A stretch of DNA of 21,800 bases from positions 1 through 21,800 of the IMG/VR virus record IMGVR_UViG_3300044491_001293; one strand, written 5' to 3'. The notes under the pieces were generated by a model. That model was not told where the DNA came from and searched no databases. It saw nothing but the letters and a program-made list of their open reading frames with translations. The stretch is from a virus. The position numbers and the translations under genes are program-made. Positions 1,516 to 20,942 of this stretch are shown here, one piece after another. Each line of letters begins with the position of its first letter. Within the stretch, counting starts at the first letter, position 1.

Positions 1516-2067
1516 ATGGAACATTTTGTAAGATTAGTAATGGAAAAGACTCAAGTCAAACTAGACGAAAGTATTTTTACAGAACAAAACATTTATGAAG
1601 CAGTAGAAAATACCTATGTTGAACTACCGCTGCCACGTGAACTTAGCGAGTCCGAAGCAGACGAATATGCACAGCGTTTAGCTGACCTTATGTTTGAAAA
1701 CGGCCACGAAGATTTTGATATTGAAATTATGTCAAACGAAGATGCAATTGACGAAGTTACATACGACGACGATGACGACTTTTATGAAGACTACGGTGAC
1801 ATGTGGTTTAATACAGATTATGTTGACGAAGCTGAATATCAAGGTCGTAAAGTTGCACTTGGTAAACCAATGGCAGGTGATACAAAAAAGTTTAAAGTGT
1901 ATGTCAAAAATCCAAAGGGTAACGTAGTTAAAGTTAACTTTGGACAAAAAGGTGTAAAAATTAAAAAGTCTAATCCGGCACGTAGACGCTCATTTAGAGC
2001 AAGACACAACTGTGATAATCCTGGACCTAGACATAAAGCAAGATATTGGAGTTGCAGGAAATGGTAA
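1516..2067 (+). CDS. Virion-associated candidate: acidic N-half with basic Cys/His C-terminal module
   Basis: This 183-residue protein starts at an ATG with AAGGA about 7 bases upstream and a GATAAATA late motif before that. Its middle (residues about 70-105) is very acidic, with a run of Asp codons near 1767. The last 60 residues switch abruptly to a Lys/Arg-rich module: KFKVYVKNPKGNVVKVNFG, then SFRARHNC, then YWSCRKW, with conserved-looking His, Cys and Trp positions that could bind a metal. I recall this module at the C-terminus of marine T4-like virion or prohead proteins, but its role is unknown to me. The charge split resembles scaffold or core proteins. It overlaps the next gene by 7 bases. 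Confidence 0.7.
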   Translation: MEHFVRLVMEKTQVKLDESIFTEQNIYEAVENTYVELPLPRELSESEADEYAQRLADLMFENGHEDFDIEIMSNEDAIDEVTYDDDDDFYEDYGDMWFNTDYVDEAEYQGRKVALGKPMAGDTKKFKVYVKNPKGNVVKVNFGQKGVKIKKSNPARRRSFRARHNCDNPGPRHKARYWSCRKW

Positions 2068-2279
2068 AAACAGTTGCAGATGAAATTAGAGAAATGGGCG
2101 ATCGCCTAACAGCACTATTAGATCAACGAGCAGTTGACGAAGCAGGCGGGTATTATACACAACCGGTATACGACCTAATTAAAAAACACGGTATTGAAAA
2201 AGTAATGCATGAGCTACTAACATCTTTAGATGGTGATGCGATTCAAAGTTTTTTACAACGTGCGAATTTTGAGGACTAA
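2061..2279 (+). CDS. Small hypothetical virion-cluster protein
   Basis: This is a 72-residue protein. I chose the ATG at 2061 over an in-frame TTG at 2046 because TTGGAG at 2046-2051 gives a ribosome site at normal distance from 2061; it overlaps the previous gene by 7 bases. The sequence looks all-helical and acidic (EIREMGDRLTALLDQR, then PVYDLIKKHGIEKVMHELL). The N-terminus contains I9-R-E11, fitting the [L/I]-x-E prohead-protease signature shared by its neighbours. The C-terminus (FLQRANFED) is typical of a complete protein. No family is recognised; context suggests a virion or assembly role. Confidence 0.65.
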   Translation: MVKTVADEIREMGDRLTALLDQRAVDEAGGYYTQPVYDLIKKHGIEKVMHELLTSLDGDAIQSFLQRANFED

Positions 2280-2282
2280 GAA

Positions 2283-2648
2283 ATGGTAAAACGCAACGAA
2301 ATTTTAGAAAATGCTATGATGGATAACAGTCCTGAAATGAAAATTGGCAGCGAGTTACCATATGATGTACTCGACGATGTTGTTGTGTTTATGCAAAATG
2401 ATCCAGATTTTTATAGAACCCAAACATATCCAGCGTTAGTTGATGTACAAAAAGCAATAAACAATGGCGGTAAATTTAGTAAGAAACAAATGTTTCCAAT
2501 GATTGATAAAGCTATTGAATCATACGTCAAAAAGTTTGATGTGCCAAAACGTCCAGATAGATTATTACACACTGATGCTGAAAAAATGGAATGTGCTACT
2601 AGGCTGTTAAATGCCGAGAAGGAAAACTTTCGTAATAAGGAATACTAA
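2283..2648 (+). CDS. Hypothetical virion-cluster protein
   Basis: This 121-residue protein starts at an ATG just after the upstream stop, with AGGACTAAG upstream as a weak ribosome site. It appears helical, with a central stretch (ALVDVQKAINNGGKFSKKQMF) resembling a small helical-repeat domain. The N-terminus holds I7-L-E9, another match to the gp21-type cleavage signature of this cluster. There is no transmembrane segment and only one cysteine. It overlaps the next gene by one base (TAATG), implying translational coupling. I do not recognise the family. Confidence 0.65.
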   Translation: MVKRNEILENAMMDNSPEMKIGSELPYDVLDDVVVFMQNDPDFYRTQTYPALVDVQKAINNGGKFSKKQMFPMIDKAIESYVKKFDVPKRPDRLLHTDAEKMECATRLLNAEKENFRNKEY

Positions 2649-3733
2649 TGCGTTATCGTGAATTTAAAATACTCACTGAAGCTAAAGTAGGCCGAGAGTA
2701 TCAACACTTAGAAGACTTAGTATTTGTCGATGGAAGCGCAGGTGCAGCCAAAGCAGCAGATATACTTAGTAAAATGGGCAGCGACAGTAGCGATATTGCT
2801 ATCAAGTGGGACGGATATCCTACTATGTATTACGGCAGAGAACCAAGTGGCAAATTTGTACTAGTAGGCAAAAACGGCTGGGGCAGAAACAAAAGTTATT
2901 CTTCAGAAGATTTATATAAATTTATTACCAATACAGGAAAAGGCGAAGAGTGGCGTGAGCGTTTTGCTAGTGAAATGGCTGGTATTTTTAAAGTTATGGA
3001 AGCAGCAACTCCTCCTAACTTTAGAGGTTACATCTACGGAGATATACTTTATCATCCAGGCAAGCCAGTTACAAAAACTGACGAAGGCTTACAGTTTACG
3101 CCAAACCTAGTAACATATACTGTTGATCCTAACAGTGAACTAGGCAAGCGTGTAGCAAACAGTACAGTGGGCGTTACAGTACACACACGCTACGAAAACT
3201 TTGGCGATAGTACTGGCACACCAATTAGTGATGTAAAAGAATTAAACAGTAGCGATGCAGTTGTACTTGGGCAAACTTATGTAACACATCAGCCACAAGT
3301 AGATACAAAAGAAGTAGACGCTATTAGAACATTTGCAAAAAAATATGCAAGTGCAATTGACAGCTTCCTTGCTCCGGTACAAGGATTAAGTGATATGAAA
3401 AATATCATTTATACATATGTAAACCAAAGTAGTAGAGCACAGCAATTACAACAACTTGATAAAAACTTTTTTAGTTGGTTGCAAGGTAGTAAAGTAAGTT
3501 CTAACAAGCAAGCAAAAATCAAAGCAATGAGTGATGAAAATCCAAAAGCGTTGCCAGCAATTTTTAGTCTTGTAAAACAAATTATGACAGCAAAGGATCA
3601 TATCATACAACAGTTAGATGATGCTCCAGCTGATGTAAAACAAAGCACCAAAGGCGAAAAAGGCGGTGAGGGATATGTAGCACTAGGTAGTAAAACTAAA
3701 CTAGTGCCGAGACAAAGGTGGCAACCGTCATGA
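2648..3733 (+). CDS. Putative ligase-fold nucleotidyltransferase with capsid-targeting-like N-terminus
   Basis: This is a 361-residue protein. The first 12 residues, MRYREFKILTEA, resemble the T4 internal-protein capsid-targeting sequence MKTYQEFIAEA, with L9-T-E11 before Ala as a gp21-type cleavage site. Downstream, IKWDGYP (K53-x-D-G56) matches motif I of ATP-dependent DNA/RNA ligases, where the Lys takes AMP. KFVLVGKNGWGRN could be motif Ia and GYIYGDILY a motif III-like strand. Near the end, GGEGYVAL and TKLVPRQRW resemble motifs IV and V. About 200 residues, partly helical, separate III from IV and no OB domain follows, so it is not a standard ligase. I infer an AMP/NMP-transferring enzyme or a degenerate ligase fold placed in the capsid. 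It overlaps the next gene by four bases (ATGA). Confidence 0.65.
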   Translation: MRYREFKILTEAKVGREYQHLEDLVFVDGSAGAAKAADILSKMGSDSSDIAIKWDGYPTMYYGREPSGKFVLVGKNGWGRNKSYSSEDLYKFITNTGKGEEWRERFASEMAGIFKVMEAATPPNFRGYIYGDILYHPGKPVTKTDEGLQFTPNLVTYTVDPNSELGKRVANSTVGVTVHTRYENFGDSTGTPISDVKELNSSDAVVLGQTYVTHQPQVDTKEVDAIRTFAKKYASAIDSFLAPVQGLSDMKNIIYTYVNQSSRAQQLQQLDKNFFSWLQGSKVSSNKQAKIKAMSDENPKALPAIFSLVKQIMTAKDHIIQQLDDAPADVKQSTKGEKGGEGYVALGSKTKLVPRQRWQPS

Positions 3734-4860
3734 AGATAAGAAATTTATTTGAAGCATCAAAGACAGCAGTTCTAGCATTTGGAAGAATGAATCCTCCTAC
3801 AATTGGGCATAAAAAATTAGCCGATAAAGTAGCAAGCATTCCTGGTGATCCTTATATTTTTGTGACACAAAGCCAAAAGCCAAAAACAGATCCGTTGCCA
3901 TTTGCAGATAAATTAAAATTTGCACAAGCAAGTTTTCCAAATGTTAAAGTAGGCAGTAGTGATGTAAAAACTATTATACAAGCACTACAAAAAATTGAAG
4001 CTATGGGATATGATAGTATTGTATATGTTGCAGGCAGTGATAGAATACAAGATTTTACTACACTTATTAACAAGTACAATGGCAAAGAGTATAACTTTAA
4101 AGATATTCAAGTTGTAAGTGCAGGCGAACGTGATCCGGATGCAGAAGGTGCTGAAGGTATGAGCGCAAGTAAGATGAGAGCAGCAGCAGCAACAGGAGAT
4201 TTTGATAGTTTCCAACAAGGTGTTGCTAATCCAAAGATTGCTCAACAAATGTATGACGCAGTACGCAAAGGTATGGGTGTATTAGAAAAGGCTCCTCCGG
4301 GTAGAGAAAAACAAGTCAAAAAACTAAAAGGCAAGTTTGACGATCCAGGTGCACCTTATGCTATTGCTTGGGCACAGCATAACAAACACGGCAAGCCTAA
4401 AAAGAAAACCAATGAAGGTTACAAACTACAACTAGAACGTGACACTGATATGATGGTGTTAAACATTGTTGACACTGCTACAGGCAAACGTACAGAAGTG
4501 CGTGGTAAGCCAGGTTACGAAACAGGCAACTATGATCCTAATGACAAGTTGCATATGCTATTAGATAAAATTGGCAAGAGTGCTGATATTTCACAACTAA
4601 TGAACGGCGAGCCAGTAGGCATTAATCCAAAACACCCACAAGGTGCTAGTGCTAAGGCTGCTACTGATAAAGCATATAACGAAAACTTTGCTGACGGTAA
4701 AGTAAAAGGCAAAAGCAGACCAGGGCGTGTAAAACGTAGTGGTGCAAGTTGTAATGGTAGTGTAACAGCACTACGCAAACGTGCTAAGAACGCAAGTGGT
4801 GAGAAGGCTAAAATGTATCACTGGTGTGCTAATATGAAAAGCGGCAAGAAAAAGAAATGA
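3730..4860 (+). CDS. HxGH-type nucleotidyltransferase with targeting-like N-terminus and modular basic tail
   Basis: This is a 376-residue protein. The ATG at 3730 (ATGA overlap) is preferred to a GTG at 3718 because it begins MKIRNLFEA, with L6-F-E8 before Ala like its neighbours. Residues 14-155 form a nucleotidyltransferase domain: AFGRMNPPTIGH holds the TIGH version of the HxGH nucleotide motif, and SASKMRAAAATGDF stands in for the C-terminal ISSTxxR-type motif. Such domains couple NTPs to phosphoryl substrates, as in NMN, pantetheine or sugar adenylyl/cytidylyltransferases; the substrate cannot be read here. The rest is tail: FDDPGAPYAIAWAQHNKHG, then a Lys/Arg-rich C-terminal module (SRPGRVKRSGASCNGS through MYHWCANMKSG) with two conserved-looking Cys. 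I infer a packaged enzyme. Confidence 0.8.
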   Translation: MKIRNLFEASKTAVLAFGRMNPPTIGHKKLADKVASIPGDPYIFVTQSQKPKTDPLPFADKLKFAQASFPNVKVGSSDVKTIIQALQKIEAMGYDSIVYVAGSDRIQDFTTLINKYNGKEYNFKDIQVVSAGERDPDAEGAEGMSASKMRAAAATGDFDSFQQGVANPKIAQQMYDAVRKGMGVLEKAPPGREKQVKKLKGKFDDPGAPYAIAWAQHNKHGKPKKKTNEGYKLQLERDTDMMVLNIVDTATGKRTEVRGKPGYETGNYDPNDKLHMLLDKIGKSADISQLMNGEPVGINPKHPQGASAKAATDKAYNENFADGKVKGKSRPGRVKRSGASCNGSVTALRKRAKNASGEKAKMYHWCANMKSGKKKK

Positions 4861-4988
4861 CCCAAGAAGAACTAGAACACTATATAGCTAAGTATAAAGA
4901 ACACGAAGCACGTAGAGCTAGTACCAACGAAAGAAATGCATACTGGAATGAATATAGAAGATCTAAAGAAACTAGCAGGGATCAGTGA
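4857..4988 (+). CDS. Small hypothetical ORF (43 aa)
   Basis: An ATG at 4857 overlaps the preceding stop as ATGA, the same coupling used throughout this operon, and opens a 43-residue frame (MTQEELEHYIAKYKEH...). The product is strongly charged and probably a single helix. It ends inside the next gene, overlapping it by about 50 bases. Without this ORF there would be a gap of about 75 bases in an otherwise gapless gene string, which favours it being real. No family is recognised. Confidence 0.5.
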   Translation: MTQEELEHYIAKYKEHEARRASTNERNAYWNEYRRSKETSRDQ

Positions 4989-5154
4989 ATTTAAAGGATA
5001 CACTGAATACACTCTAGAAGATTTTAGCGATGCTGCAAATGCTAATCGTAAGAAAGAACGTGAGCAAAATATCAAACCAGGCACCGACGAATGGTTTAAA
5101 CTATGGTTTAGTCAGCCTAAGATGCAAGGCAAAGGATTTAGAGGCCGCAAATGA
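4936..5154 (+). CDS. Small basic virion-cluster protein
   Basis: This protein has 72 residues from the ATG at 4936, or 68 from 4948, where MNIEDLKKLAGIS looks like a natural N-terminus; the upstream GAAAGAA weakly favours 4936. The N-half is acidic (YTEYTLEDFSDAANANRK) and the C-half basic and aromatic, ending IKPGTDEWFKLWFS then GKGFRGRK. I recall the PGTDEWFKLWF type motif in other marine myovirus proteins, without a known role. It overlaps the next gene as ATGA. Its small size and place among probable internal virion proteins suggest a capsid or assembly role. Confidence 0.6.
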   Translation: MHTGMNIEDLKKLAGISEFKGYTEYTLEDFSDAANANRKKEREQNIKPGTDEWFKLWFSQPKMQGKGFRGRK

Positions 5155-5456
5155 AAATAGACGATTTATTTGAAGATGGACGTATTGTAAAAGGTGTTAA
5201 CACTACCCCTGATGTTGGTGTTAATCAAACTAGTATTGAAGCAGCAAAATTAGGCTTTAAAGTAGACAAAGATGGTAAGCCGCCTACATTAAGTAGTAAG
5301 GTAAAAGGCAAGTCAACTAATGTGCTTTTTAACTTAGGAATGACCGAAGATACTACTCCGCGATATACTGCTGCAGAATGGGCTATTATCGAAGGCGGAC
5401 ACACGCTTGAGGAACCTGAAGAAAAAGTAAAGTTATTTGATTGGACTAAATACTAA
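5151..5456 (+). CDS. Small virion-cluster protein with LFE targeting-like N-terminus
   Basis: This 101-residue protein begins MKIDDLFEDG, nearly the same as the MKIRNLFEA start of the nucleotidyltransferase two genes upstream, and has L6-F-E8 as a predicted gp21-type site. After it comes a Gly/Pro/Lys-rich stretch (NTTPDVGVNQTSIEAAKLGF, then DGKPPTLSSK, then NVLFNLGMTE). I recall this stretch as a recurring module of marine T4-like phage proteins. The C-terminus is acidic and ends FDWTKY. No enzymatic motif is visible. It starts by ATGA overlap and its stop is one base before the next ATG. Confidence 0.65.
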   Translation: MKIDDLFEDGRIVKGVNTTPDVGVNQTSIEAAKLGFKVDKDGKPPTLSSKVKGKSTNVLFNLGMTEDTTPRYTAAEWAIIEGGHTLEEPEEKVKLFDWTKY

Positions 5457-5457
5457 C

Positions 5458-5649
5458 ATGAGACTAAGAGAGACCTTTAAAGCACCTGCATTTCATTTGT
5501 TTATGGCCGATTTACGCATTAGACAAAAGTATTACTCGCAAGCTATCAAAGTGCAAACACAAGCACGTAATGCCATTGAAGCTAAAAAGCAGCTTATGGC
5601 ACAGTATGGTCCTGATACAAAAATTATTTCAATTAGGCGAAGCAAATGA
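5458..5649 (+). CDS. Small basic virion-cluster protein
   Basis: This is a 63-residue protein; the ATG at 5458, one base after the previous stop, is preferred to a TTG 21 bases earlier inside that gene. It is very basic, with helix-forming residues: HLFMADLRIRQKYYSQAI, then a module ARNAIEAKKQLMAQYGPDT followed by KIISIRRSK. I recall this last module at the end of other marine phage proteins. The N-terminus MRLRETFKA contains L3-R-E5 but lacks Glu where its neighbours have LFEA, so cleavage is less certain. It could bind nucleic acid by charge. It overlaps the next gene by ATGA. Confidence 0.6.
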   Translation: MRLRETFKAPAFHLFMADLRIRQKYYSQAIKVQTQARNAIEAKKQLMAQYGPDTKIISIRRSK

Positions 5650-6218
5650 TTATAAGCGAAATTACAGGCGGCGGTAAGGCTGGACATCAAGCCAAAGGCA
5701 AAGATAAAATGCCTATAGCCAAAGGCGGTCGTACTAAGCATCCTTTAAAAGGTAAACTAGTAGGCGAAGCACAACTAGACGAAGCAGCACCTATTATTGC
5801 AGCAGCAATATGGTTGATTAAATTTGCAGCGGCACGTGGAGCATGGCCTATTATTAAATGGCTGATAAAAAGACACGGTGGCAAAATTGGTGCAGGTGCA
5901 GCCGCAGCATACTATATCGATCAAGGATGGGACTGGGTAATATCTCAAATTGGTGAAGAATATGCACAGATGCTTATTGATAACAAATTTGAAATCGGCA
6001 TGGCAGTAGCACTTATACTAGGTGCAGTTGCTCTTAAAAAGTTTATTGAGAAAAAAGGCGAAGCATTAGTAGCCAAATATCAAGAAGAATCAATGTACGA
6101 AACAACAAGTGCTGGTGCAATTGCTTCAACTAATAATGGGTTTGCAGGTGGCGGCCCAGGAAGTATGCTACGCAGAGGTGCAGCACCAAAACGTAGAACA
6201 AAAAAGAAAAACAGATAA
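5646..6218 (+). CDS. Hydrophobic virion-cluster protein, candidate ejected or pore protein
   Basis: This is a 190-residue protein. Its first 46 residues are Gly/Lys-rich and end in QLDEAAP, a good gp21-type site (L44-D-E46 before Ala); I3-S-E5 is a second possible site. Cleavage after E46 would expose a hydrophobic N-terminus: IIAAAIWLIKFAAARGAWPI, then a basic stretch, then a second apolar segment (IGMAVALILGAVALKKFI, near residues 118-135). These could be membrane or amphipathic helices. The tail holds a SAGAIAS...GGGPGSM module, then a basic end (PKRRTKKKNR). I infer an internal protein that might contact the host membrane during ejection; it could equally be a core protein. No family is recognised. 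Confidence 0.65.
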   Translation: MIISEITGGGKAGHQAKGKDKMPIAKGGRTKHPLKGKLVGEAQLDEAAPIIAAAIWLIKFAAARGAWPIIKWLIKRHGGKIGAGAAAAYYIDQGWDWVISQIGEEYAQMLIDNKFEIGMAVALILGAVALKKFIEKKGEALVAKYQEESMYETTSAGAIASTNNGFAGGGPGSMLRRGAAPKRRTKKKNR

Positions 6219-6221
6219 ATA
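6214..6221 (+). promoter_or_regulatory. Candidate T4-like late promoter (GATAAATA)
   Basis: This is a second GATAAATA, again overlapping the previous gene's stop and again followed by GTA, as at 1481. It lies 20 bases before the ATG at 6241, with a clear GGAG ribosome site between. Recurrence of the same octamer in the same context before two virion-type genes supports a late promoter. Confidence 0.5.
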
Positions 6222-6240
6222 GTAGTAACCGGAGAATACT

Positions 6241-7260
6241 ATGACAAATAAGAAACTTGCAGAACGTGATGTAGATGATAACTTCAACATCAATCCAAAG
6301 CACAAAGCTATTGCCGCACTAGGCAGAAAAATGATTGACATGAGTTCGAGAATGACTGGAACTGATGATAACACACTGATGATGGCAAATGCATTATCGA
6401 GACTGGGCGAATCACTTGAATCGTTTGGAGCAAGTTTTGGTCCAAAGAGTATGTCCGATGTTGTTAAAATGACAGGCATGAGTCAAGACGTTATTCAAAT
6501 GTTAATTGGTAAAGCAAAAGCAGACAAAGATGCTTCAACTAATCGTGCAGCTGAACCAGCAGAAGGCAACAAGTTTTCCGGAGAACTTAAAAAAGCCAAA
6601 GACTCAGGCAAAGACGAATTTGAAGTAGACGGTAAAAAGCATAAAGTAGAAGCACTTAGACCTGGGCACGCCAAAGAGTTAAGAAACAAAGAACTTAACA
6701 AAGGCAAAGGTGCACCTAAAGCAGGTAAGACAACCGGGCCTGACGATTATGATTTCTTAAAGTATAAAAACAAAAAGAAAAAAGTAACAACCGAAGGTCT
6801 TGCTGATATGGCAGACATGGCAGAACGTGATCACGAAGTACAAATGGCACGTGCCGAACTATATAAAATTGCAAAGTATTCAATCAAACTACACGAAATT
6901 CTAAAAGGTGTTAGCGAAGCTGAAGGTATTGAAGGTTGGATGCAAAGTAAAATTACTAAAGCAGCAGACTATATCGGCAGTGTATATCACACACTAGACT
7001 ATGATAAATCACCAATAGCAGCAACTGAAAGTCACAAGTTTACAATGGACGAAGCAGATGTTGTAAAGTACAAAAGCAGTTTAGATTCAAGACTTTCAGA
7101 AGCTAAAGGTACATGTAAAGAATGTGGCAATCCAAGTTACACAACACTACCAGAAGAAAAGCAAAAAGGCGTTGACGGCAAAGTATGCTGGAAAGGATAC
7201 AAGCGTATGGGCACCAAGAAAAAAGGTGGCAAAACTGTAGACAACTGCGTTAAAATGTAG
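6241..7260 (+). CDS. Modular virion-candidate protein with C-terminal Cys-rich module
   Basis: This 339-residue protein follows a late-promoter-like motif and a GGAG ribosome site. The N-terminus MTNKKLAERD has L6-A-E8. Residues about 10-95 are helical and Met-rich (KHKAIAALGRKMIDMSSRMT). A Lys-rich linker follows. Residues about 187-255 form another helical module (DHEVQMARAELYKIAKYSIK, then GIEGWMQSKITKAADYIGSV). The last 55 residues hold CKECGNPSY and then VCWKGYKRMGTKKKGGKTVD ending CVKM; four or more Cys suggest metal or disulfide stabilisation. I recall the last two modules in several marine T4-like structural or core proteins, in different combinations. It fits a prohead-core or internal protein; the exact role is unknown. 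Confidence 0.7.
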   Translation: MTNKKLAERDVDDNFNINPKHKAIAALGRKMIDMSSRMTGTDDNTLMMANALSRLGESLESFGASFGPKSMSDVVKMTGMSQDVIQMLIGKAKADKDASTNRAAEPAEGNKFSGELKKAKDSGKDEFEVDGKKHKVEALRPGHAKELRNKELNKGKGAPKAGKTTGPDDYDFLKYKNKKKKVTTEGLADMADMAERDHEVQMARAELYKIAKYSIKLHEILKGVSEAEGIEGWMQSKITKAADYIGSVYHTLDYDKSPIAATESHKFTMDEADVVKYKSSLDSRLSEAKGTCKECGNPSYTTLPEEKQKGVDGKVCWKGYKRMGTKKKGGKTVDNCVKM

Positions 7261-11651: not shown

Positions 11652-14333
11652 ATGGCATATGTAGATGCATTTTTTGACAGAGATTCGGATATTATCCGTG
11701 TTGTCGAACGCAAGGATGGAAAGAGACATTTCCATGAATACCAAGCAAAGTATACATGGTATTATGAAGACCCACGTGGCAAATACAAAAGTATCTATGG
11801 CGATCCGCTAACAAGAGTTGTATGCAAAAACACAAAAGACTTTCGCAAGGAACTTGCTATTAACAAAGGCAAGACAATGTTTGAAAGTGATGTAAATCCT
11901 ATCTTCCAGTGTTTGAGTGAAAACTATCTTAATCAAGACGCACCTAAACTAAACGTAGTGTTTTGGGATATTGAGACTGACTTTGATCCAGAGCGAGGCT
12001 TTGCTCCAGTTGAAGATCCGTTTATGCCTATTACTGCTATTACTGTACATCTGCAATGGCTCGACATGCTTGTAACTGTTGCTATGCCTCCAAAAGGCTT
12101 GCCATTTGAAGAAGCAAATGCAATGTGTAAAGAACGCTGGGGAGAAAGTTGTATACTATTTCCAAATAGTGAAAAAGGTGAACAAGACATGCTATCAACA
12201 TTTTTAGACTTGATAGAAGATGCCGATATTCACAGTGGATGGAATAGTGAAGGATATGACGTTCCATATACAGTTAACCGTATTAAGCGTGTGCTAAGTA
12301 ACGACGATACAAGACGTTTTTGTTTGTGGGGACAAAAGCCCAAGCGTAGAGAATATGAAAAGTTTGGTAAAACATCAGAAACATATGACACCATCGGAAG
12401 AGTACATATGGACTATCTTAACTTGTATCGCAAGTATACATATGAAGAACGTCACACATATAGACTAGATGCTATTGGCGAAATGGAAGTTGGCGAGAAT
12501 AAGACTGTATACGAAGGTACACTTGATCAACTTTACAACAATGACTTTGAGCGTTTTATTGAATACAATAGACAAGACGTTGCACTACTAGACAAACTAG
12601 ACAAGAAACTACGTTTTATTGATCTTGCTAATGAAATTGCGCATGACAACACTGTGCTATTGCAAACAACAGCAGGTGCAGTTGCAGTTACAGAACAAGC
12701 AATTGTTAACGAAGCACATAGACGTGGACTACAAGTGCCAAACAGAAAAAATCACGAAGGTAATACAGCAGCAGCTGGTGCATATGTTGCATTTCCAAAG
12801 AAAGGTGTGCATGAATGGATTGGTAGTATGGACTTGAACAGTCTGTATCCAAGTATTATTCGTGCAATGAACATGGCACCTGAAACTATTGTAGGACAAA
12901 TACGTTTGGATCTTACAGATGAGTTTTTGCACAATGCAACTACACTTGAAAAGAAAAGTTTTGCAGGTGCGTGGGAAGGAAAATTTGCTACATTAGAATA
13001 TGATGCAGTTATGGAAAAACGCAAAGACGTAGCACTAACACTTGAATTAGAAGATGGAACATCACACGTATTAAGTGGCGCTGAACTTTGGAAACTTATA
13101 TTTGACAGCAATCAACCTTGGATGCTTAGTAGCAATGGTACTATTTTTACAACAGAAATTGAAGGAGTTATTCCCGGACTACTAAAGCGTTGGTATAGCG
13201 AACGTAAAGAACTACAAGCAATGCTTAAAAAAGCAAAAGATGCAAAAAATGATGCAGAGATTGAATACTGGGACAAGCGACAGCTGGTTAAAAAGATTAA
13301 CTTGAACAGTTTGTATGGTGCTATTCTTAATCCAGGTTGTAGATTCTTTGATAAACGTATTGGACAGAGTACAACATTAAGCGGCAGAACTATTGTTAAG
13401 CATATGAGTGCCGAAGTTAATAAGGTTATCACAGGCGAGTATGATCATGTTGGTAAAGCAATGATATATGGCGACACAGACTCTTGTTATTTTAGTGCGT
13501 ATCCTGTACTAAAAGATGATATCAACAAAGGAAATATTCCATGGGATAAAGACAATGTAATTACATTGTATGATCAAGTGTGCGAACAGGCAAACACTAC
13601 ATTTCCACAGTTTATGCTAGATGCATTTCACTGTCCAAGATCACGTAGCGATGTGATTGCAGCAGCAAGAGAGATTGTTGCAGAAACAGGATTGTTTATT
13701 ACTAAGAAACGTTATGCAGCACTAGTGTATGACATCGAAGGCTTTAGAAGTGACAGCGACGGCAAAAGAGGCAAAGTAAAAGCAATGGGCTTGGACTTGA
13801 AGCGCAGTGATACTCCAGTTTTCATGCAGGACTTCTTAAAAGATTTGCTCGATATGGTACTAGATAAAAAGCCTGAAAAAGAACTACTTGATGCTATTAG
13901 TGAATTCCGTAAAGAGTTTAAAGAAATGCCCGGGTGGGAAAAAGGCGCACCAAAACGTGCAAACAAGATTGGACACTACAGACGCTTAGAAGAAAAGCAA
14001 GGCAAAGCAAACATGCCAGGGCATGTAAGAGCAAGTCTTAACTGGAATACATTGAAGCGTATGAATGGAGACAAGTATTCGCAAGAGATTGTAGATGGTA
14101 TGAAAGTTATTGTTTGCAAACTAAAGCAAAATCCACTAGGTTATACAAGTGTTGCATATCCTACAGATGAATTGCGTATTCCAGAATGGTTCAAGGAACT
14201 GCCGTTTGATGGAGATGCAATGGAAGAGGTTATTATTGATAATAAACTAGGCAACCTTATTGGTGTGCTTAACTATGACTTAGAAAGCACAAAACAAAAA
14301 ACAACATTTAACACTTTATTTGAATGGGATTAA
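11652..14333 (+). CDS. 43: T4-type family B DNA polymerase (gp43)
   Basis: This is an 893-residue protein, close to T4 gp43 (898). The 3'-5' exonuclease motifs are present: Exo I VFWDIET (D106, E108), Exo II GWNSEGYDVPY and Exo III EYNRQDVALLD. The polymerase motifs are intact: A (MDLNSLYPSIIRAMNM), B (KKINLNSLYGAILN) and C (YGDTDSCY, residues 606-613). It is the replicative phage polymerase, acting with a clamp such as the product at 17697. There is no intein, split or frameshift. It has its own promoter and GGAG ribosome site. The C-terminus ends FNTLFEWD, where a clamp-binding peptide is expected in the family. The stop overlaps the sulfotransferase gene by 10 bases. Confidence 0.97.
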   Translation: MAYVDAFFDRDSDIIRVVERKDGKRHFHEYQAKYTWYYEDPRGKYKSIYGDPLTRVVCKNTKDFRKELAINKGKTMFESDVNPIFQCLSENYLNQDAPKLNVVFWDIETDFDPERGFAPVEDPFMPITAITVHLQWLDMLVTVAMPPKGLPFEEANAMCKERWGESCILFPNSEKGEQDMLSTFLDLIEDADIHSGWNSEGYDVPYTVNRIKRVLSNDDTRRFCLWGQKPKRREYEKFGKTSETYDTIGRVHMDYLNLYRKYTYEERHTYRLDAIGEMEVGENKTVYEGTLDQLYNNDFERFIEYNRQDVALLDKLDKKLRFIDLANEIAHDNTVLLQTTAGAVAVTEQAIVNEAHRRGLQVPNRKNHEGNTAAAGAYVAFPKKGVHEWIGSMDLNSLYPSIIRAMNMAPETIVGQIRLDLTDEFLHNATTLEKKSFAGAWEGKFATLEYDAVMEKRKDVALTLELEDGTSHVLSGAELWKLIFDSNQPWMLSSNGTIFTTEIEGVIPGLLKRWYSERKELQAMLKKAKDAKNDAEIEYWDKRQLVKKINLNSLYGAILNPGCRFFDKRIGQSTTLSGRTIVKHMSAEVNKVITGEYDHVGKAMIYGDTDSCYFSAYPVLKDDINKGNIPWDKDNVITLYDQVCEQANTTFPQFMLDAFHCPRSRSDVIAAAREIVAETGLFITKKRYAALVYDIEGFRSDSDGKRGKVKAMGLDLKRSDTPVFMQDFLKDLLDMVLDKKPEKELLDAISEFRKEFKEMPGWEKGAPKRANKIGHYRRLEEKQGKANMPGHVRASLNWNTLKRMNGDKYSQEIVDGMKVIVCKLKQNPLGYTSVAYPTDELRIPEWFKELPFDGDAMEEVIIDNKLGNLIGVLNYDLESTKQKTTFNTLFEWD

Positions 14334-14887
14334 GATTGGATTTATATAACCATCCTTATGGTCTTTGTGTGTCAGTTGACAAAGATAATGCTATTGTACG
14401 CATACCAAAAAATGCTTCGAGCTTGGTAGCTAACTATGGCCTAGAACGAAATTGGTTTTATGTTGGAAATGAATTACATCTTGTAAAACCAAAATTTTTT
14501 CATGTTGTGTTAAGAGACCCATTAGAGCGTTGGATTAGCGGAGTTCTTGAATTTCAACAAAGAAAAAAATATCCTGTAATAAAATTTTTAGAAAATTTAA
14601 AAAAAATTGAGTTTGACGAACACACAGTTCCACAATACAAATTTTTACCAGCTTATGGAAAATTATACTTTTATAATATGGATGATGGAGGTTTAGATAT
14701 ATTATTAAAACATAAATTTAAGCTATTTCCACAAACACCACCATTGCCTAAAATTAATTCTACTAAAGAAACCAAGCAGAGAGAAATTCAAAATAGAATA
14801 ATAGCAGCAATGGATAAAAGTCTTGTTAATGATATTAAGGAATATTACGCAGAAGATTACAAATTAATAAAGGAACATTTGCTATGA
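14324..14887 (+). CDS. Sulfotransferase-like protein
   Basis: This is a 187-residue protein. IPKNASS (residues 27-33) matches the 5'-phosphosulfate-binding loop of PAPS-dependent sulfotransferases, and VLRDPLERWISGVLEF (from residue 62) matches the 3'-phosphate-binding RdPxxRwiS motif. DEHTVPQYKFL is also typical of carbohydrate sulfotransferases. It would move sulfate from PAPS to a hydroxyl, most likely on a glycan given its neighbours. The length is short for the family but both cofactor motifs are present. Base composition is very A+T-rich: 99 G+C of 360 over 14461-14820, against about 42% in two sampled lines of gene 43. That suggests a later acquisition. ATG 14324 overlaps the polymerase end. 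Confidence 0.8.
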   Translation: MGLRLDLYNHPYGLCVSVDKDNAIVRIPKNASSLVANYGLERNWFYVGNELHLVKPKFFHVVLRDPLERWISGVLEFQQRKKYPVIKFLENLKKIEFDEHTVPQYKFLPAYGKLYFYNMDDGGLDILLKHKFKLFPQTPPLPKINSTKETKQREIQNRIIAAMDKSLVNDIKEYYAEDYKLIKEHLL

Positions 14888-15291
14888 AAGTAGGATTTAC
14901 ATGTAGTACGTTTGATCTATTACACGCAGGACACGTACAAATGTTGCGTGAAGCAAAAGAACAATGCGATTATTTACTAGTTGGACTACAAATGGATCCA
15001 AGTGTAGATAGAACAGAAAAGAACGCACCTGTACAAAATATTGTAGAACGTTATACACAACTTAAAGCAGTGAAATATGTAGACGAAATCATTCCATATG
15101 GCACCGAACAAGACCTAAAAGATATCTTGACAATGTATAATATTCATGTTAGAATATTAGGTGTAGAGTACAAAGATAAAGACTTTACTGGTAAAGAAAT
15201 ATGCTTACAACGTGGTGTAGATTTTTATTTTAACAAACGAGATCACAGATTTAGTACAAGCGATCTTAGAAAAAGAGTATGTGAAGTATGA
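14884..15291 (+). CDS. Cytidylyltransferase-like nucleotidyltransferase
   Basis: This 135-residue protein is the usual size of TagD/RfaE C-terminal type enzymes. HAGH (residues 14-17, in STFDLLHAGHVQMLREAKEQ) is the nucleotide-binding HxGH motif. KNAPVQNIVERYTQLKAVKY carries the conserved ERYxxL region, and HRFSTSDLRKRV the C-terminal (S)TSxLR motif. The family makes CDP-glycerol, CDP-ethanolamine or ADP-heptose from the phosphate compound. Here it probably activates a sugar or polyol phosphate for the glycan pathway formed with its neighbours. ATGA overlaps on both sides show tight coupling to the sulfotransferase and phosphomannomutase-like genes. Confidence 0.85.
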   Translation: MKVGFTCSTFDLLHAGHVQMLREAKEQCDYLLVGLQMDPSVDRTEKNAPVQNIVERYTQLKAVKYVDEIIPYGTEQDLKDILTMYNIHVRILGVEYKDKDFTGKEICLQRGVDFYFNKRDHRFSTSDLRKRVCEV

Positions 15292-15989
15292 CAATAGAAT
15301 TTGTTTTTGATGTTGATGGTACACTAACTCCAAGCCGTGGTGAAATCGATCCTGAATTTAAACAGTTCTTTGATAAGTTTTGTATAAAGAATAATGTATA
15401 TTTTGTTACAGGAAGTGACAAAGCAAAAACTGTTGAACAGCTCGGCGAAGATACTTATGCATTGGCTAAAGTAGTGTTCAATTGTTCCGGAAATGACATC
15501 TATACTACTGGTGTTAATGTACGCAAAAGCGAATGGACACTGCCGAGTCAGTTAAGGAAAATGCTCGAGGGATGGTTACAAGGTAGTAATTTTAAATACC
15601 GTACAGGAAACCATATTGAAGAACGTCCTGGTACTGTAAACTTTAGCATTATAGGACGTAACTGCACATTAGACGAACGTAAAGAATATATCAAATACGA
15701 CAAATTAATGCGTGAACGTGAAAGTATTGCTTTTCAAATTAATCATTCTTTTAAAGAAATTACTGCTACTGTAGGCGGCGAAACAGGCATCGATATCTAT
15801 CCTACTGGATGTGATAAAGGACAAGTATACTATGAATTTAGTAAAGGTGCCACAATACACTTTTTTGGCGACAAAATGGAACCAGGCGGAAACGATTATC
15901 CACTAGCTAAATTACTAAAACATCCTAGTAAAGCTATCCAAGTAGATAATTGGCAACATACATGGAAGTTACTTAAAGAATATGATTAA
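15288..15989 (+). CDS. Eukaryote-type phosphomannomutase-like HAD enzyme
   Basis: This is a 233-residue protein. FDVDGTLTPSR (D8 nucleophile, D10 acid/base) opens a HAD domain. The cap and later motifs look like eukaryotic alpha-phosphomannomutase (PMM1/PMM2): VTGSDKAKTVEQLG, HIEERPGTVNFSIIGRNCT, DERKEYIKYDK, GIDIYPTGCDKGQ and IHFFGDKMEPGGNDY. The length is a little below human PMM2 (246). The family interconverts mannose-6-P and mannose-1-P (or glucose equivalents), feeding GDP-mannose synthesis. Bacterial PMMs normally belong to an unrelated fold, so this is notable in a phage. Relaxed sugar-phosphatase activity is possible. It lies between a cytidylyltransferase-like gene and a sugar dehydrogenase, consistent with an NDP-sugar route. 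Confidence 0.85.
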   Translation: MTIEFVFDVDGTLTPSRGEIDPEFKQFFDKFCIKNNVYFVTGSDKAKTVEQLGEDTYALAKVVFNCSGNDIYTTGVNVRKSEWTLPSQLRKMLEGWLQGSNFKYRTGNHIEERPGTVNFSIIGRNCTLDERKEYIKYDKLMRERESIAFQINHSFKEITATVGGETGIDIYPTGCDKGQVYYEFSKGATIHFFGDKMEPGGNDYPLAKLLKHPSKAIQVDNWQHTWKLLKEYD

Positions 15990-16722
15990 AATAGGCATTG
16001 CTGGATATGGCTATGTAGGCCAAGCACACTACGAAGCATTAAAAGACTATTATGAAGTACTAATTAGTGATCCAGCAAAAGGACATTATGAAGACTTACG
16101 ACATTGCGATTGTGTAATTGTTTGTGTAGCAACACCCGAAGCTAAAGATGGTACTTGCTATATGCAAAATGTGTATGATGTACTCAACGATCTTAAAAAT
16201 GTACCAATATTGATTAAAAGTACTATAAGCATTGTGGGCTGGCAGTATATCAATAGAACATTCCGAAACGTAAGTTTTTCACCAGAGTTTTTAAGAGCAG
16301 AATCTGCACTAGAAGACTTTAAAAACAATAATACTATACTTATTGGCGGCAATAGTGTACATTTTTGGCAAGAGATTTTTCTTAATAGTATGGGAAATAT
16401 TAACATTGATATTGCTGATCCCGAAGAACTTATACTAGTTAAGTATTTTCGCAACAGTTTCCTTGCTACAAAAGTGGCTTTTTTCAATGAGATATACGAT
16501 CTGTGTAAAAATACAAATGCTGACTACAATACTGTTGCCAAACTAATTAGCATGGATTCACGTATTGGCACTAGCCATACAACTGTTACCGAAGAGCGTG
16601 GATTTGGAGGACACTGCTTCCCTAAGGATGTAAGTGCATTATTAAAAATGGCAGAAGATTTAGGAAATAATCTAAATATACTTGAAGCTGCTAACAACTA
16701 TAACAAAAGGATAAGAAAGTGA
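15982..16722 (+). CDS. Short UDP-glucose/GDP-mannose dehydrogenase family protein
   Basis: This is a 246-residue protein. [12 protein letters not shown] (residues 5-16) is the NAD-binding Rossmann loop. [37 protein letters not shown] (K154, N158) and [10 protein letters not shown] (catalytic C212, K215) are the family signatures for two-step oxidation of the sugar C6 to a uronic acid. Usual members have about 390-440 residues; this one stops just after the catalytic Cys and dimerisation helix and lacks the C-terminal NDP-sugar domain. There is no sign of a frameshift, because the next gene starts by GTGA overlap with a different product. It may work as a compact enzyme or with another subunit. 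The start overlaps the previous gene by 8 bases. Confidence 0.85.
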
Positions 16723-17651
16723 AAATAATTGCTGGAAACGCTAACATGGCTCTAGTAGAATCTATTGCAGAACATTGTTTTGCAGCACTAGTTCCATCTA
16801 AAATTGCTACATTTGCAGATGGTGAAACAACTGTAGAGTTTCATGATAATATACGTGGCGAAGATGTTTTTATAGTACAAAGTACATGTACTCCTGTAAA
16901 TGATAGCCTAATGGAACTGTTGATTATGATCGATGCTGCAAAGAGATCGAGTGCCAGACGGATCACAGCAGTTATTCCTTACTTTGGTTACGCAAGACAA
17001 GACCGTAAAAGTGCTTCACGTACACCTATTACAGCAAAACTAGTTGCTAACTTACTAACAACAGCAGGTGCAGATAGAATACTTACAATGGATCTACACG
17101 CAGGACAGATACAGGGCTTCTTTGATATTCCTGTAGACGACTTAACAAGTCGATTGGTGTTTGCTAAAGATATCAAACGCAATGTAGGAACAGAACAAGG
17201 CACAGTGTTTGTATCGCCAGACGCAGGTGGAGTTGTTCGTGCTAGAAAGTTTGCTGATATGTTCCATGCAGACATTGCTATTGTAGACAAGATGCGTCCA
17301 GAAGCAGGCAAAAGCGAAGTCATGAACTTGATCGGCAATGTAGAGGGTAAACATGCCATTCTGGTTGATGACATCATTGACTCAGGCGGTACACTATGCA
17401 ATGCAGCTAAAGCAATTATAGATGCAGGTGCATTATCAGTACGTGCATACATCACACACGGTGTTCTAAGCGGTGAAGCATGTCAAAAGGTTGAAAAGAG
17501 TGTACTAGAAGAACTAGTAGTAACAGACAGTATTAACAATCGCTGTCCAAAGAATTGCAAAAAGACCCGATACGTGAGTGTAAGCCAACTATTTGGCGAA
17601 GCTATCAGACGTGTCACAAACGAAGAATCAGTTAGTAGTTTATTTGGTTGA
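16719..17651 (+). CDS. prs: Ribose-phosphate pyrophosphokinase (PRPP synthetase)
   Basis: This 310-residue protein is full length for the family (about 310-320). It starts at GTG, overlapping the previous stop as GTGA. Visible motifs: [17 protein letters not shown] (ATP loop); the [12 protein letters not shown] Mg-ATP site; VSPDAGG; and the PRPP loop [10 protein letters not shown]. The enzyme makes PRPP from ribose-5-P and ATP, feeding nucleotide, NAD and histidine synthesis. In a phage it would raise supply for DNA replication, which fits a location between DNA polymerase and sliding clamp genes. The C-terminal third is a bit divergent ([14 protein letters not shown]). Its stop codon lies inside the -35 box of the next promoter. 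Confidence 0.93.
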
Positions 17652-18428: not shown

Positions 18429-19982
18429 ATGAATACAGATCTCACAGAAGCACAACAAGACTATGCACATTTTTTGCCTAGTATTAGTGGCTTCTATGCC
18501 ACGTTTATAGGCAAACAACGATTCCAAGAGTATGTTGAACCTGGAAGAATTCCAAGTGGTATTAACAACATGGAAGGTATGAACTTTTTAAATCCAAAAG
18601 AAGGAGCGTTCCACTACAAATGGGCGCTTTATTCTGCAGGACATGCAGAGCTTGACACAAACAAATTCAGTGAAAAAGAAGATATGTTGCGTAACCGCGA
18701 CAGAGATAACAGCTGGCTACTTGGCGACTCTGGAGGGTTCCAGATTGCTAAAGGTTTGTGGCCTGGAGACTGGACTAATCCAGATTGTCCCCATGCTGCA
18801 AAAAAACGTGAACTAGTTGTTAACTGGATGGAAGAGTATATGGATTATGGAATGATGTTAGATATTCCAACATGGACATTCCAAGATAAAAAAGCAGCCG
18901 ATGCAGCAAATATTCGTAGTTATCAAGATGCTGTAGATGCTACACACATTAATGCACGTTATTATATGGATAATAGACGTGGTAACTTTAAAGTACTAAA
19001 TGTACTACAAGGTAGTACACACAGTGATGCTGATAGCTGGTACGAAGAGTTTAAAGATTACTGCGATCCTGTAAAATATCCAGACACACACTTTAATGGC
19101 TGGGCAATGGGTGGACAGAACATGTGCGATGTACATCTTATCTTAAGACGCCTTGTGCATATGATACACGATGGCTTACTAGAAGAAGGATTGCATGATG
19201 TAATGCACTTCCTTGGTACTAGTAAACTAGAATGGGCTGTATTGCTTACAGATATCCAACGTGCAATACGCAAGTATCACAATCCAAACTTTATGATTAC
19301 ATATGATTGTGCTTCGCCGTTTCTTGCAACAGCAAACGGACAAATTTATCACAGTATTCGTATTGAAGACCGTGGCAAATGGAGCTATATGATGTCGCCT
19401 GGAGCTGATGCATTAAAATATGCTACAGATACACGCAAGTTTAGTGACGCAGTTATTACAGATCGCATACTAGATGCATTTGAAGATTCTCCTATTAGTA
19501 AACACTGCAAAATGAATGATATTTGTATCTATGCAGAAGGTGATAAAAACAAAGTTGGTTCACCTAAAATTAAAGCAGGTGATATAGACTTAGACAAGCA
19601 TGGCGATCCTATATTAGATGAAGATGGAAATCCGGTAGTACGTAAAAAAGATAGTACCAGTTGGGATAGCTTTAGCTATGCACTACAAATGGGCCATAAT
19701 GTTTGGATGCACATTGAAAGTACACAACGTGCAAACAGAGAATACGACAATGGCAAGTTTCCATACATGCTTATAAATGACAAAGACTTTCCAGGTTGGG
19801 GAGTTGTTAAATTTAAAGAAGTTGTAGACGAAATCTTTAGTCTCAAAGATCGACAAAAGAGTCTAGACTTGATTGAAAAATACGATCGTTATTGGATGCA
19901 TGTTATTGGAACACGCCTAAATATTGGTAAGAAAACTAAAAATGCATTAACAAACTTTGGTAAACTTTTTGAGGAAGTATAA
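18429..19982 (+). CDS. tRNA-guanine transglycosylase-like protein (TGT/DpdA superfamily)
   Basis: This is a 517-residue protein. LLGDSGGFQ (D100) matches the TGT DSGGFQ motif with its general acid Asp. MLDIPTW (D145) matches the base-recognition Asp, VLQGST (Q194) the QGG motif, GWAMGG the GyaxGG loop, HFLGTSK the YLMGVG loop, and TYDCASPF (D293) the FDCVxPT nucleophile region. The CxCxxC zinc site that follows in bacterial TGT is not seen, and there are insertions (residues about 365-410), so it is closer to phage or DpdA-like members. TGTs swap guanine for a 7-deazaguanine in tRNA; DpdA does so in DNA. Which applies here cannot be told. A possible QueD-like protein lies three genes downstream. 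Confidence 0.8.
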   Translation: MNTDLTEAQQDYAHFLPSISGFYATFIGKQRFQEYVEPGRIPSGINNMEGMNFLNPKEGAFHYKWALYSAGHAELDTNKFSEKEDMLRNRDRDNSWLLGDSGGFQIAKGLWPGDWTNPDCPHAAKKRELVVNWMEEYMDYGMMLDIPTWTFQDKKAADAANIRSYQDAVDATHINARYYMDNRRGNFKVLNVLQGSTHSDADSWYEEFKDYCDPVKYPDTHFNGWAMGGQNMCDVHLILRRLVHMIHDGLLEEGLHDVMHFLGTSKLEWAVLLTDIQRAIRKYHNPNFMITYDCASPFLATANGQIYHSIRIEDRGKWSYMMSPGADALKYATDTRKFSDAVITDRILDAFEDSPISKHCKMNDICIYAEGDKNKVGSPKIKAGDIDLDKHGDPILDEDGNPVVRKKDSTSWDSFSYALQMGHNVWMHIESTQRANREYDNGKFPYMLINDKDFPGWGVVKFKEVVDEIFSLKDRQKSLDLIEKYDRYWMHVIGTRLNIGKKTKNALTNFGKLFEEV

Positions 19983-20194
19983 TGACTACAGTAGAAAACT
20001 TAAAAGCATATATTGCAGAACTTACAAAAAAACATAGAGCGCTAGATGAAAAAATTATCGAATTAGAAAAAAAGCTCTATGTAGATCAAGAAGTAAGAAC
20101 ATTAAAAACGCAGAAGTTATTCTACAAAGATGAACTACATCGAATAGAAAATAAAATAAATGCAATGGAGAATGGAGTAAATGGATCCAAATGA
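19982..20194 (+). CDS. DUF465-like coiled-coil protein
   Basis: This 70-residue protein starts at TAATG overlap after a GAGGAAG ribosome site. It is almost wholly helical and charged. HRALDEKIIELEKK, then LKTQKLFYKDELHRIE, fits the HxxLDxxI...LKxxKLxxKDE pattern of the small DUF465 (YdcH-like) family, whose role is unsettled. It sits directly behind the TGT-like gene and overlaps the next small helical gene. It may be an accessory or oligomerisation factor; this is inference from position only. Confidence 0.7.
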   Translation: MTTVENLKAYIAELTKKHRALDEKIIELEKKLYVDQEVRTLKTQKLFYKDELHRIENKINAMENGVNGSK

Positions 20195-20354
20195 GAAAAA
20201 AATTCGTTTAGAAACTATCGAAATGGCACTAGAAGATATCGAAACTATTATTGCTAACATGGAAGAAAAAAACTATCCTAAAAAAGAAATCAACGAATAC
20301 TATAAAAAACGCTGGGATCTTTGGCAGGAACAGTATAAAACGAGGAAATCATGA
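20181..20354 (+). CDS. Small charged helical protein (57 aa)
   Basis: An ATG at 20181, with GGAG about 4-7 bases upstream, opens a 57-codon frame: MDPNEKKIRLETIEMALEDI, then NYPKKEINEYYKKRWDLWQE. It overlaps the preceding gene by 14 bases and ends with an ATGA-type overlap at 20351-20354. It fills what would otherwise be a 156-base gap in a gapless operon, which supports it being a gene. It is probably helical, like its neighbour at 19982; no family is recognised. Confidence 0.6.
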   Translation: MDPNEKKIRLETIEMALEDIETIIANMEEKNYPKKEINEYYKKRWDLWQEQYKTRKS

Positions 20355-20878
20355 AAAGAGTATATGACCAAGGAACAGATATTGAAAGTGTTCAATATTT
20401 TGTTGGAACAGAAGTTGAACATACCCCACAGTTTGGAAAGAAAACACTATTTGTTGTAGGTGCTATGGATCCTGATGAAGTAATGGCTATGGCCGAAATG
20501 CAAGGATGTAAACATATCTATTGTGGTGCTAATATGAGTTTTAATGTCACTAGCAATACAGAAAGCGAATGGAAACCTTGGGAAGCTATGGTATTTCCAT
20601 TATTAAAAGAAGGTTATTGGGTTACACTAGATGCTGATGTAAGCCAAGTTGAAGGCTTATTAGAAAGTGGATTCACGGAACACAACCGTTTTATTCCAAT
20701 GATTAGTGTGAAACTACCATATATCGATCAACTTGGATATAACGCTTGTTTAAAAATTGACGATAAAGACTTCGATGCAAGTAATCCTGGTGTATGGGTT
20801 CATAGATTACACGATTTAAAAGAGAAGGCTGTCTTTACAGACTGGTCTAAATACACTACAGACACAATTATCACTTGA
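20351..20878 (+). CDS. Conserved phage hypothetical protein
   Basis: This is a 175-residue protein behind GAGGAAA. It looks alpha/beta: KTLFVVGAMDPDEVMAMAEM, then HIYCGANMSFN, WEAMVFPLLKEGYWVTLDAD, FIPMISVKLPYIDQLGYNAC, LKIDDKDFDASNPGVW, and an FTDWSKY end. I recall close relatives in marine T4-like phages but no assigned function. The TLDADV stretch and conserved Asp pairs could bind metal; this is not established. The stop codon TGA is embedded in the -35 box of the next promoter. Position between a TGT-like and a T-fold-like gene makes a shared pathway possible. Confidence 0.75.
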   Translation: MKRVYDQGTDIESVQYFVGTEVEHTPQFGKKTLFVVGAMDPDEVMAMAEMQGCKHIYCGANMSFNVTSNTESEWKPWEAMVFPLLKEGYWVTLDADVSQVEGLLESGFTEHNRFIPMISVKLPYIDQLGYNACLKIDDKDFDASNPGVWVHRLHDLKEKAVFTDWSKYTTDTIIT

Positions 20879-20903
20879 CAATATGCAACAAGAACGCTAT
20901 TAT
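20875..20903 (+). promoter_or_regulatory. Sigma70-type promoter (TTGACA-N17-TATTAT)
   Basis: A perfect TTGACA at 20875-20880, 17 bases, then TATTAT at 20898-20903 (5 of 6). The -35 contains the stop codon of the upstream gene. A transcript starting near 20910 would miss the ATG at 20883 but include AGAGGAAG and the ATG at 20943, so it also decides the start of the next gene. Confidence 0.6.
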
Positions 20904-20942
20904 ACATATATGCAAAGACGCATGAGAGAGGAAGATGCTAAG

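Follow-up and report, generated by a model that had tools for sequence, protein, structure and literature searches.

The window analysed here, positions 1–21,800 (21,800 bases) of the IMG/VR virus record IMGVR_UViG_3300044491_001293, carries between 2061 and 7260 a block of genes whose proteins mostly begin with a short leader ending in [LI]xE. Leaders of this kind stand on non-homologous proteins, are conserved among homologues and cluster in the genome; the major capsid protein (MCP) has the same kind of site, and in relatives copies of the MCP arm occur on other proteins. From these observations we infer targeting, cutting, ejection and cargo function, though not with equal confidence. By analogy with phage T4, the leaders probably (roughly 0.78) direct precursors into the prohead, where they are removed by a protease of the gp21 type, while the further step, in which the cargo is ejected into the host with the DNA, is one that the same analogy leads us to favor only slightly.

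In the mechanism that we envisage, the genes of this island would mostly encode precursors with a leader of 5–18 residues at the start, the last three of which are [LI]xE. As heads are assembled, this leader would dock its precursor inside the prohead, much like the capsid-targeting sequence of T4, and a protease of the gp21 type would cut after the Glu; the MCP would be trimmed by the same enzyme, at a site of like form. The mature protein would then be retained in the head with the DNA, along with which it would enter the cell. A subset of these proteins has the mature N-arm of the MCP copied behind a site, perhaps as a further point of contact with the capsid or because it makes a good substrate for the protease.

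A recount with our own gene caller (which, on one S-CREM2 stretch, reproduced 68/69 annotated stops and 58/68 starts) agrees with the initial annotation, which had claimed eight tagged genes among the ten of the block and a single later match. The motif falls within residues 2–12 in 8/10 genes at 2061–7260, as IRE, ILE, LTE, LFE, LFE, LRE, ISE and LAE, with a chance expectation of 0.46 estimated from 11-mers inside the same proteins, and in 1/19 later genes, the one match being the TGT-like protein with LTEA (Fisher 8.6e-5, an optimistic value because the limits of the block were picked after looking). The leaders in the window end at residues 5–11. Since the block was chosen by eye, its repetition in related loci and other phages is the stronger test.

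Conservation of the leaders is given below as the fraction of distinct homologous N-termini, found with phmmer, that have [LI]xE in residues 2–12 unless stated otherwise; all features are on the plus strand. By this measure, the leader is conserved for MVKRNEILE (2283–2309) of gene 2283–2648, in 40/44; MRYREFKILTE (2648–2680) of gene 2648–3733, a ligase-like DUF6267 protein, in 6/8; MKIRNLFE (3730–3753) of gene 3730–4860, a CTP_transf_like nucleotidyltransferase, in 45/49; MKIDDLFE (5151–5174) of gene 5151–5456, in 34/38; and the short leaders MRLRE (5458–5472) of gene 5458–5649, in 6/8, and MIISE (5646–5660) of gene 5646–6218, in 4/6. When nucleotidyltransferases are collected by their core motif, 40/43 N-termini have the site: the residue two before the Glu is Leu in 31 and Ile in 9, Ala follows the Glu in 32/40, and the distance from the site to the FGRMNPP core is 9–11 residues in 39 and 77 in one. 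The leaders of DUF6267 homologues vary yet reach the site (MRYREFKILTEA, MRAFEFLIEAE, MKSYKQHLTEAD); at two loci (L035, L019) the leader is longer, with SITE or EIQE at its end just ahead of the same core, and the homologue at a third (L075) has no leader site. In both families, the motif is largely kept while its flanks vary.

The same arrangement recurs in relatives, taken as loci around nucleotidyltransferase homologues in viral contigs (the best 80 of at least 597 stretches). There are 63 sources, the window included, that have the nucleotidyltransferase by core motif, some of them near-identical (the protein of L002 is 100% identical to the window's). Across these, tagged genes concentrate around the nucleotidyltransferase, in keeping with the clustering originally claimed: by gene position relative to it, the tagged fraction is 0.02–0.17 at -9 to -4, then 0.84, 0.94, 0.35, 0.53, 0.60, 0.60, 0.57, 0.33, 0.28 and 0.26 at -1 to +8, and 0.04 at +11. 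Many non-homologous families have the common leader form M-[KR]-[ILVFM]-x-[ED]-[ILV]-x-E, as in MKINEILAE, MKIKDITEA, MKVFDVISEA, MKIHDIISEA, MRIIEVTEG and MKLSDITEE. With each family counted once, a strict pattern is found in 29/122 island families against 0.67 in shuffled N-termini (maximum 5 in 2000 shuffles), and in 6/170 families seen only outside the island against 0.68 (maximum 5); a loose pattern gives 51/122 against 14.4 and 26/170 against 17.2, respectively. These family counts rest on a stricter clustering, a looser one having merged modular proteins (556 in one family). Over whole records, strict matches (observed/shuffled mean/largest shuffle, genes touching piece ends being left out) number 22/3.0/8 in Agrobacterium phage Atu_ph07, where 845 genes called against 714 annotated mean that the called set includes extra genes, 8/0.8/4 in contig G031 (counted over bases to 146,000 of 148,056) and 6/0.7/3 in contig G041. 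In a further contig, G047, the island, an S77-type protease and the MCP occur together. The MCP is found in 3/47 relatives' records, the S77 protease in 3/47 and PF04586 in 0/21; as these records are mostly fragments, the missing MCP and protease are uninformative.

A connection to the virion comes from cyanophages. In the T4 IPIII leader, residues 4 and 7 serve mainly targeting and residues 8 and 10 processing, and an Asp at 10 blocks processing and allows targeting (PMC9026906). Our T4-spaced pattern (hydrophobic at 4 and 7, Ile/Leu at 8, Glu at 10) follows these residue roles, and the T4 controls read MKTYQEFIAEA for ipIII, MKTFKEFTSTTTPVSTITEA for ipI and FLTEAEIGG for gp23. The exact spacing occurs in 5/219 genes of S-CREM2, and 4/5 of their products are in the printed virion list (PMC10665884, Table 3), namely the proteins named SAM hydrolase, APH-like kinase and cytidylyltransferase, together with ORF13. 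The association has a Fisher value of 0.012 overall, and of 0.0012 when the comparison is between virion proteins other than those we classed as structural or endolysin (4/26) and undetected genes (1/167). A loose pattern, [LI]xE in residues 2–15, gives 0.019 in S-CREM2 and 0.21 in S-SZBM1, where the sole strict match in the virion list is the cytidylyltransferase, MRFRQFIIEA. The presence of this cyanophage protein in virions is already published: cytidylyltransferase/NMNAT-like proteins have been reported in those of S-CREM2, S-SZBM1, S-SCSM1, S-CBWM1 and S-SM1. In S-SM2, S-H25 and S-RIM50, the nucleotidyltransferase leader reads MKSFFQFLSEA or MKKFSAFLTEA; the S-H9-2 nucleotidyltransferase is without one. 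Across whole genomes, the T4-spaced pattern is found 4 times in S-RIM50 against 0.82 expected (3/300 shuffles reach 4), and 6 against 0.74 in Melnitz-3 and 4 against 0.90 in C48C1, parts of which were viewed before the pattern was fixed.

The MCP itself provides the other connection. Its sites, predicted by position and not measured as cuts, have the same form as the leaders: FLSE|AAPT in Melnitz-3, FLTE|TGPT in C48C1, MIAE|QPTN in S-SM2, MLSE|TLAT in S-RIM50 and, among jumbo phages, LME|TATAGATSAGN in Sinorhizobium phage Phosso and LME|NATAGATSSGN in Atu_ph07. In a test of 10 genomes (S-H25 was left out, and the arms of S-CREM2, Phosso and Atu_ph07 were located by hand), the best score of a non-MCP protein against its own phage's MCP arm was set against the largest of 200 shuffles. 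Another protein copies the arm in 5/10 genomes (0/200 shuffles reach the score), and one more is marginal. In S-SM2, gene 91376 (score 114 vs 58), which is SSM2_108 with the same start, directly joins a T4-spaced leader to a near copy, MKTLKQFLKE|TPTNSVGNGGYTSAGGQTVAGYD, compared with MIAE|QPTNAVGNGGYTSSGGQTVAGFD in the MCP. In S-RIM50 gene 151795 (96 vs 55), 5.3 kb from the nucleotidyltransferase start, the arm follows immediately after the Met. ORF160 of S-CREM2 (89 vs 57) is in the published virion list, gene 33133 of G047 (58 vs 46) is leader-bearing and inside the island, and gene 39484 of Atu_ph07 (57 vs 44) is leader-bearing and within a published virion cluster. The marginal case is Phosso (47, reached by 1/200 shuffles, and with a shorter arm by 0/300), the match of which is also leader-bearing, MKAIEILSES..LFE|HASGGGTGAGSVAT.

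A jumbo MCP site-plus-arm pattern picks out 30 proteins in 81 sources, most of them one homologous family and not independent, with 24 at +3 to +8, 2 at +13 and 4 in loci without an index. In whole records, it finds the MCP alone in Phosso and Atu_ph07, the MCP and one island protein in G047, one protein each in G031, G041 and contig G027, and none in contig G009. The only match in the window is internal to gene 5646–6218, at 6099–6170, where SMYE|TTSAGAIASTNNGFAGGGPGSML (beginning SMYE|TTSAGAIAS) presents an MCP-like site and arm in a product with a hydrophobic middle stretch and a basic tail, as judged by hydropathy and charge. We tentatively suggest, at somewhat under even odds, that T4-superfamily phages give selected cargo a copy of their own mature MCP N-arm behind a prohead-protease site, such that cutting would expose a shell-anchoring arm; the arm would differ between phage groups, and the copy would follow it. 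Such copies may act as shell anchors or as good protease substrates. The S-RIM50 protein L259 1296–1829 (R290704_192), in which no leader stands before the mature MCP arm and the Met leads straight into it, is in effect an arm copy already cut in nature. By eye, LRE|EATAAPTNNVGGGQI of S-SM2 (L210 8028–8216) and MINE|EAPTNSVGTG of S-SZBM1 gene 134, the latter not the top protein in the S-SZBM1 alignment test, resemble the MCP arms of related cyanophages.

Atu_ph07 has a tandem array of eleven paralogous leader-bearing proteins (L192 39484–50000, record 39484–50592), with leaders such as MRWEQLTE and MKWHQLTE. By our own count, their genes are coding sequences (CDS) 53–63, inside the CDS 31–76 cluster, for which 29 proteins were found in virions, a figure for the cluster as a whole (PMC6102473). 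A Pfam search of ten of the eleven matched Zeta_toxin and AAA_33 in the first, with no match above cut-off for the remaining nine; the motifs YRGM, SFICTS and NEVWVSG suggest that the array is ADP-ribosyltransferase-like.

A number of observations weigh against prohead targeting and cutting. Neither the protease nor the MCP of the window phage itself is present in the 21,800-base record. The strict pattern was composed after the island families had been viewed, and only Phosso and Atu_ph07 are independent of the set that yielded it; Phosso shows no enrichment over its whole record (3/2.3/7), and 11 of the 22 Atu_ph07 matches come from the one tandem array. Strict counts are also at or below the largest shuffle in G047 (4/0.8/4), G027 (3/0.5/3) and G009 (2/0.3/3), so the genome-wide comparison with shuffled N-termini that the initial annotation had proposed divides, with Atu_ph07, G031 and G041 on one side and Phosso, G009, G027 and G047 on the other. 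The T4-spaced pattern, in turn, was fixed after the S-CREM2 N-termini had been seen, and it is not enriched in S-SM2 (2 vs 1.13, a low count in that our caller missed the annotated nucleotidyltransferase leader), S-H25 (2 vs 0.93) or S-H9-2 (0 vs 0.92). The S-SZBM1 virion list (PMC9146016, Table 1) holds 1/6 strict and 0/2 exact matches, with no enrichment, and carry-over of abundant proteins is regarded as possible by the authors of the S-CREM2 list (PMC10665884). No arm copy was detected in S-SZBM1, Melnitz-3 (10/200 shuffles), C48C1 or S-H9-2, and the window arm of gene 5646–6218 is not significant alone against that of G047 (590/1000 shuffles), so that the case for an arm copy in the window rests on the relatives. 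Internal [LI]xE motifs show no depletion in the block proteins (8 found vs 9.4 expected).

Within the block, the site is also unevenly convincing. The IRE at residues 9–11 of the small protein 2061–2279 (1/1 distinct N-terminus, three loci) is probably a chance match, since family 57, matched to 2061 by its location in relatives, is tagged in 0/6 and has EIREL/QIRDL farther from the start. Gene 4857 is without a site, and the leader MTNKKLAE (6241–6264) of gene 6241–7260 is weak (2/5 N-termini); neither the 2061 nor the 6241 leader is conserved in homologues. The first interpretation is therefore supported in part. The proposal that the whole block is packaged lacks support in the form given. 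The likeness of the leaders to capsid-targeting propeptides of a prohead protease is supported, by virion-listed relatives, the MCP-like site and the S-SM2 leader-arm fusion.

The strongest of the alternative readings accepts that the proteins are packaged and cut, but holds that they never leave the head or shell, where they would condense DNA or be part of the structure, and so are not host effectors. Several are indeed small and basic, basic modules recur at their C-termini, and the arm copies suggest shell contact; yet the nucleotidyltransferase is enzyme-like, as are the S-CREM2 proteins named SAM hydrolase and kinase, and the gene content of the island differs between relatives, which would be unusual for core structure. 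We judge it unlikely, if not markedly so. Improbable, in our view, is the notion that the leader is another signal, for a membrane, a replication compartment or degradation by a ClpA-like ATPase, with [LI]xE reflecting a short amphipathic helix. In its favor, the window has a ClpA-like gene ahead of the block, and both Phosso and Atu_ph07 have annotated Clp genes in the corresponding part of their genomes. Against this, all 40 site-bearing nucleotidyltransferase leaders keep the Glu (partly by definition, 3/43 being without a site), leader-bearing S-CREM2 proteins are present in virions, and the S-SM2 leader is joined at its Glu to an MCP arm copy. Simple chance in Glu-rich starts might be suspected for a motif of three residues, one of them a wild card, that is not enriched in several genomes and of which 2061 looks to be a fortuitous case; set against the excess over shuffles among island families counted once, under both patterns, we consider it very improbable.

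If the leaders do act in prohead targeting, the known counterpart would be the gp21-cut IPI, IPII, IPIII and Alt of T4, otherwise unrelated proteins that likewise start with a short leader closed by [LI]xE. The leader spacing of IPIII is found in the relatives S-CREM2, S-SM2, S-H25 and S-RIM50, and the 6-residue leader of Alt, ITE-6 (PMC5694885), is short like those of the window. The window clade differs in its 8-residue MKIxxLFE-type leader, shorter than T4's, and in having one large many-family island, with enzymes as cargo and MCP-arm copies in relatives. Because the IPIII spacing is absent in the window, its leaders would not be T4 capsid-targeting sequences proper and would only work like them; the close T4 resemblance first claimed for MKIRNLFEA gives way to a clade-specific form. 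The jumbo phages phiKZ and SPN3US are similar in that many packaged proteins are cut after Glu by a protease related to T4 gp21. SPN3US differs in its A-x-E motif, its sometimes long propeptides and its capsid proteins, which fall outside the gp23 family tested here, and the window DNA polymerase points to Atu_ph07 and Phosso. The cytidylyltransferase/NMNAT-like proteins of cyanophage virions are related to window gene 3730–4860, and published accounts of cyanophage virion enzymes, in the portions available, describe virion presence without a link to a leader or protease site. Among published titles, mostly open-access, we found none that describes MCP-arm copies, or leaders like these from marine or Rak2-like phages, and arm mimicry may be the part that is new in kind. 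The leaders would provide a sequence rule for picking out, among the uncharacterized proteins of marine and jumbo T4-superfamily phages, those that are carried in the head and may be the first to act in the host, and they offer an explanation for the published enzymes in cyanophage virions. The MCP-arm copy suggests a second docking element, which might be of use for loading phage heads with proteins. If the cargo reading is true, infection may begin with proteins that the virus brings along already made.

The candidate cargo does include the two enzyme-like proteins claimed at the outset. Gene 3730–4860 matches CTP_transf_like in Pfam and phage cytidyltransferase families in PHROG, and it has no sequence relatives in the PDB at E 0.1; related cyanophage proteins were named NMNAT-like by their authors (PMC10665884). 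For gene 2648–3733, the predicted model has residues 1–17 at a pLDDT (predicted local distance difference test) below 50, and KWDG, EGxV and K residues are invariant across 10 aligned DUF6267 sequences. KxDG, EGxV and K are motifs of the covalent nucleotidyltransferase (ligase) superfamily. Fold matches to the model are weak (Foldseek best E 0.13; VIA best Z 6.3, with a root-mean-square deviation of 3.7 over 109 residues), the top rows being ligases aligned from K53, and a PDB sequence search gave one match at E 0.2. Together, motifs and model suggest that DUF6267 is a ligase-type adenylyltransferase.

Two further genes may carry related sites. Gene 1516–2067, a possible extra member adjoining the block, begins MEHFVRLVMEK, with V-M-E at residues 8–10; among its homologues [LI]xE in residues 2–12 occurs in only 2/40 and [LIVM]xE in residues 2–16 in 34/40, and it has a DUF5754 match under cut-off. 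Gene 4936–5154 has a possible late site, MHTGMNIEDLKKLAGISE (4936–4989), with 15/50 and 39/50 by the same two measures. Short basic modules with Cys residues (SFRARHNC..YWSC, MYHWCANM, CWKGYKR..DNCV) turn up at the C-termini of different island proteins in relatives and are borne in the window by genes 1516–2067, 3730–4860 and 6241–7260. The module SFRARHNC..YWSC of 1516–2067 occurs in 69 proteins in 69 sources, and CWKGYKR..DNCV of 6241–7260 in 20 proteins in 20 sources, some with leader-like starts. Relatives sometimes have a leader fused to a C-terminal module alone, for example MKIKEVVEKAPPGREK.. (48 aa). These modules may bind DNA or the shell.

As to its origin, the window record is probably a fragment of a longer genome, and megablast of the window against the phage collection gave no nucleotide match. 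Its DNA polymerase is closest to those of the jumbo phages Phosso (469 kb, 49.5%) and Atu_ph07 (490 kb, 47.1%), followed by Vibrio phage 2.275.O and others such as Serratia phage BF and Salmonella phage Munch. Atu_ph07 has been assigned to the T4 superfamily, near Rak2-like phages (PMC6102473), and we take the source to be a marine phage of the T4 superfamily, probably a jumbo one. Of two late promoter motifs sought in the window, TATAAATA was found 0 times against 3.3 expected and CTAAATA 8 times against 6.35 expected, which is uninformative. By eye, 14324–17651 holds genes resembling a sulfotransferase, a glycerol-phosphate cytidylyltransferase, a phosphatase, a sugar dehydrogenase and a ribose-phosphate pyrophosphokinase. 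The protein at 18429–21341, called TGT-like in the initial annotation, has tblastn matches in 14 phage records, with Pseudomonas jumbo phages nearest, and lies near a protein with a weak QueD-like match; the pair is perhaps a 7-deazaguanine DNA modification set.

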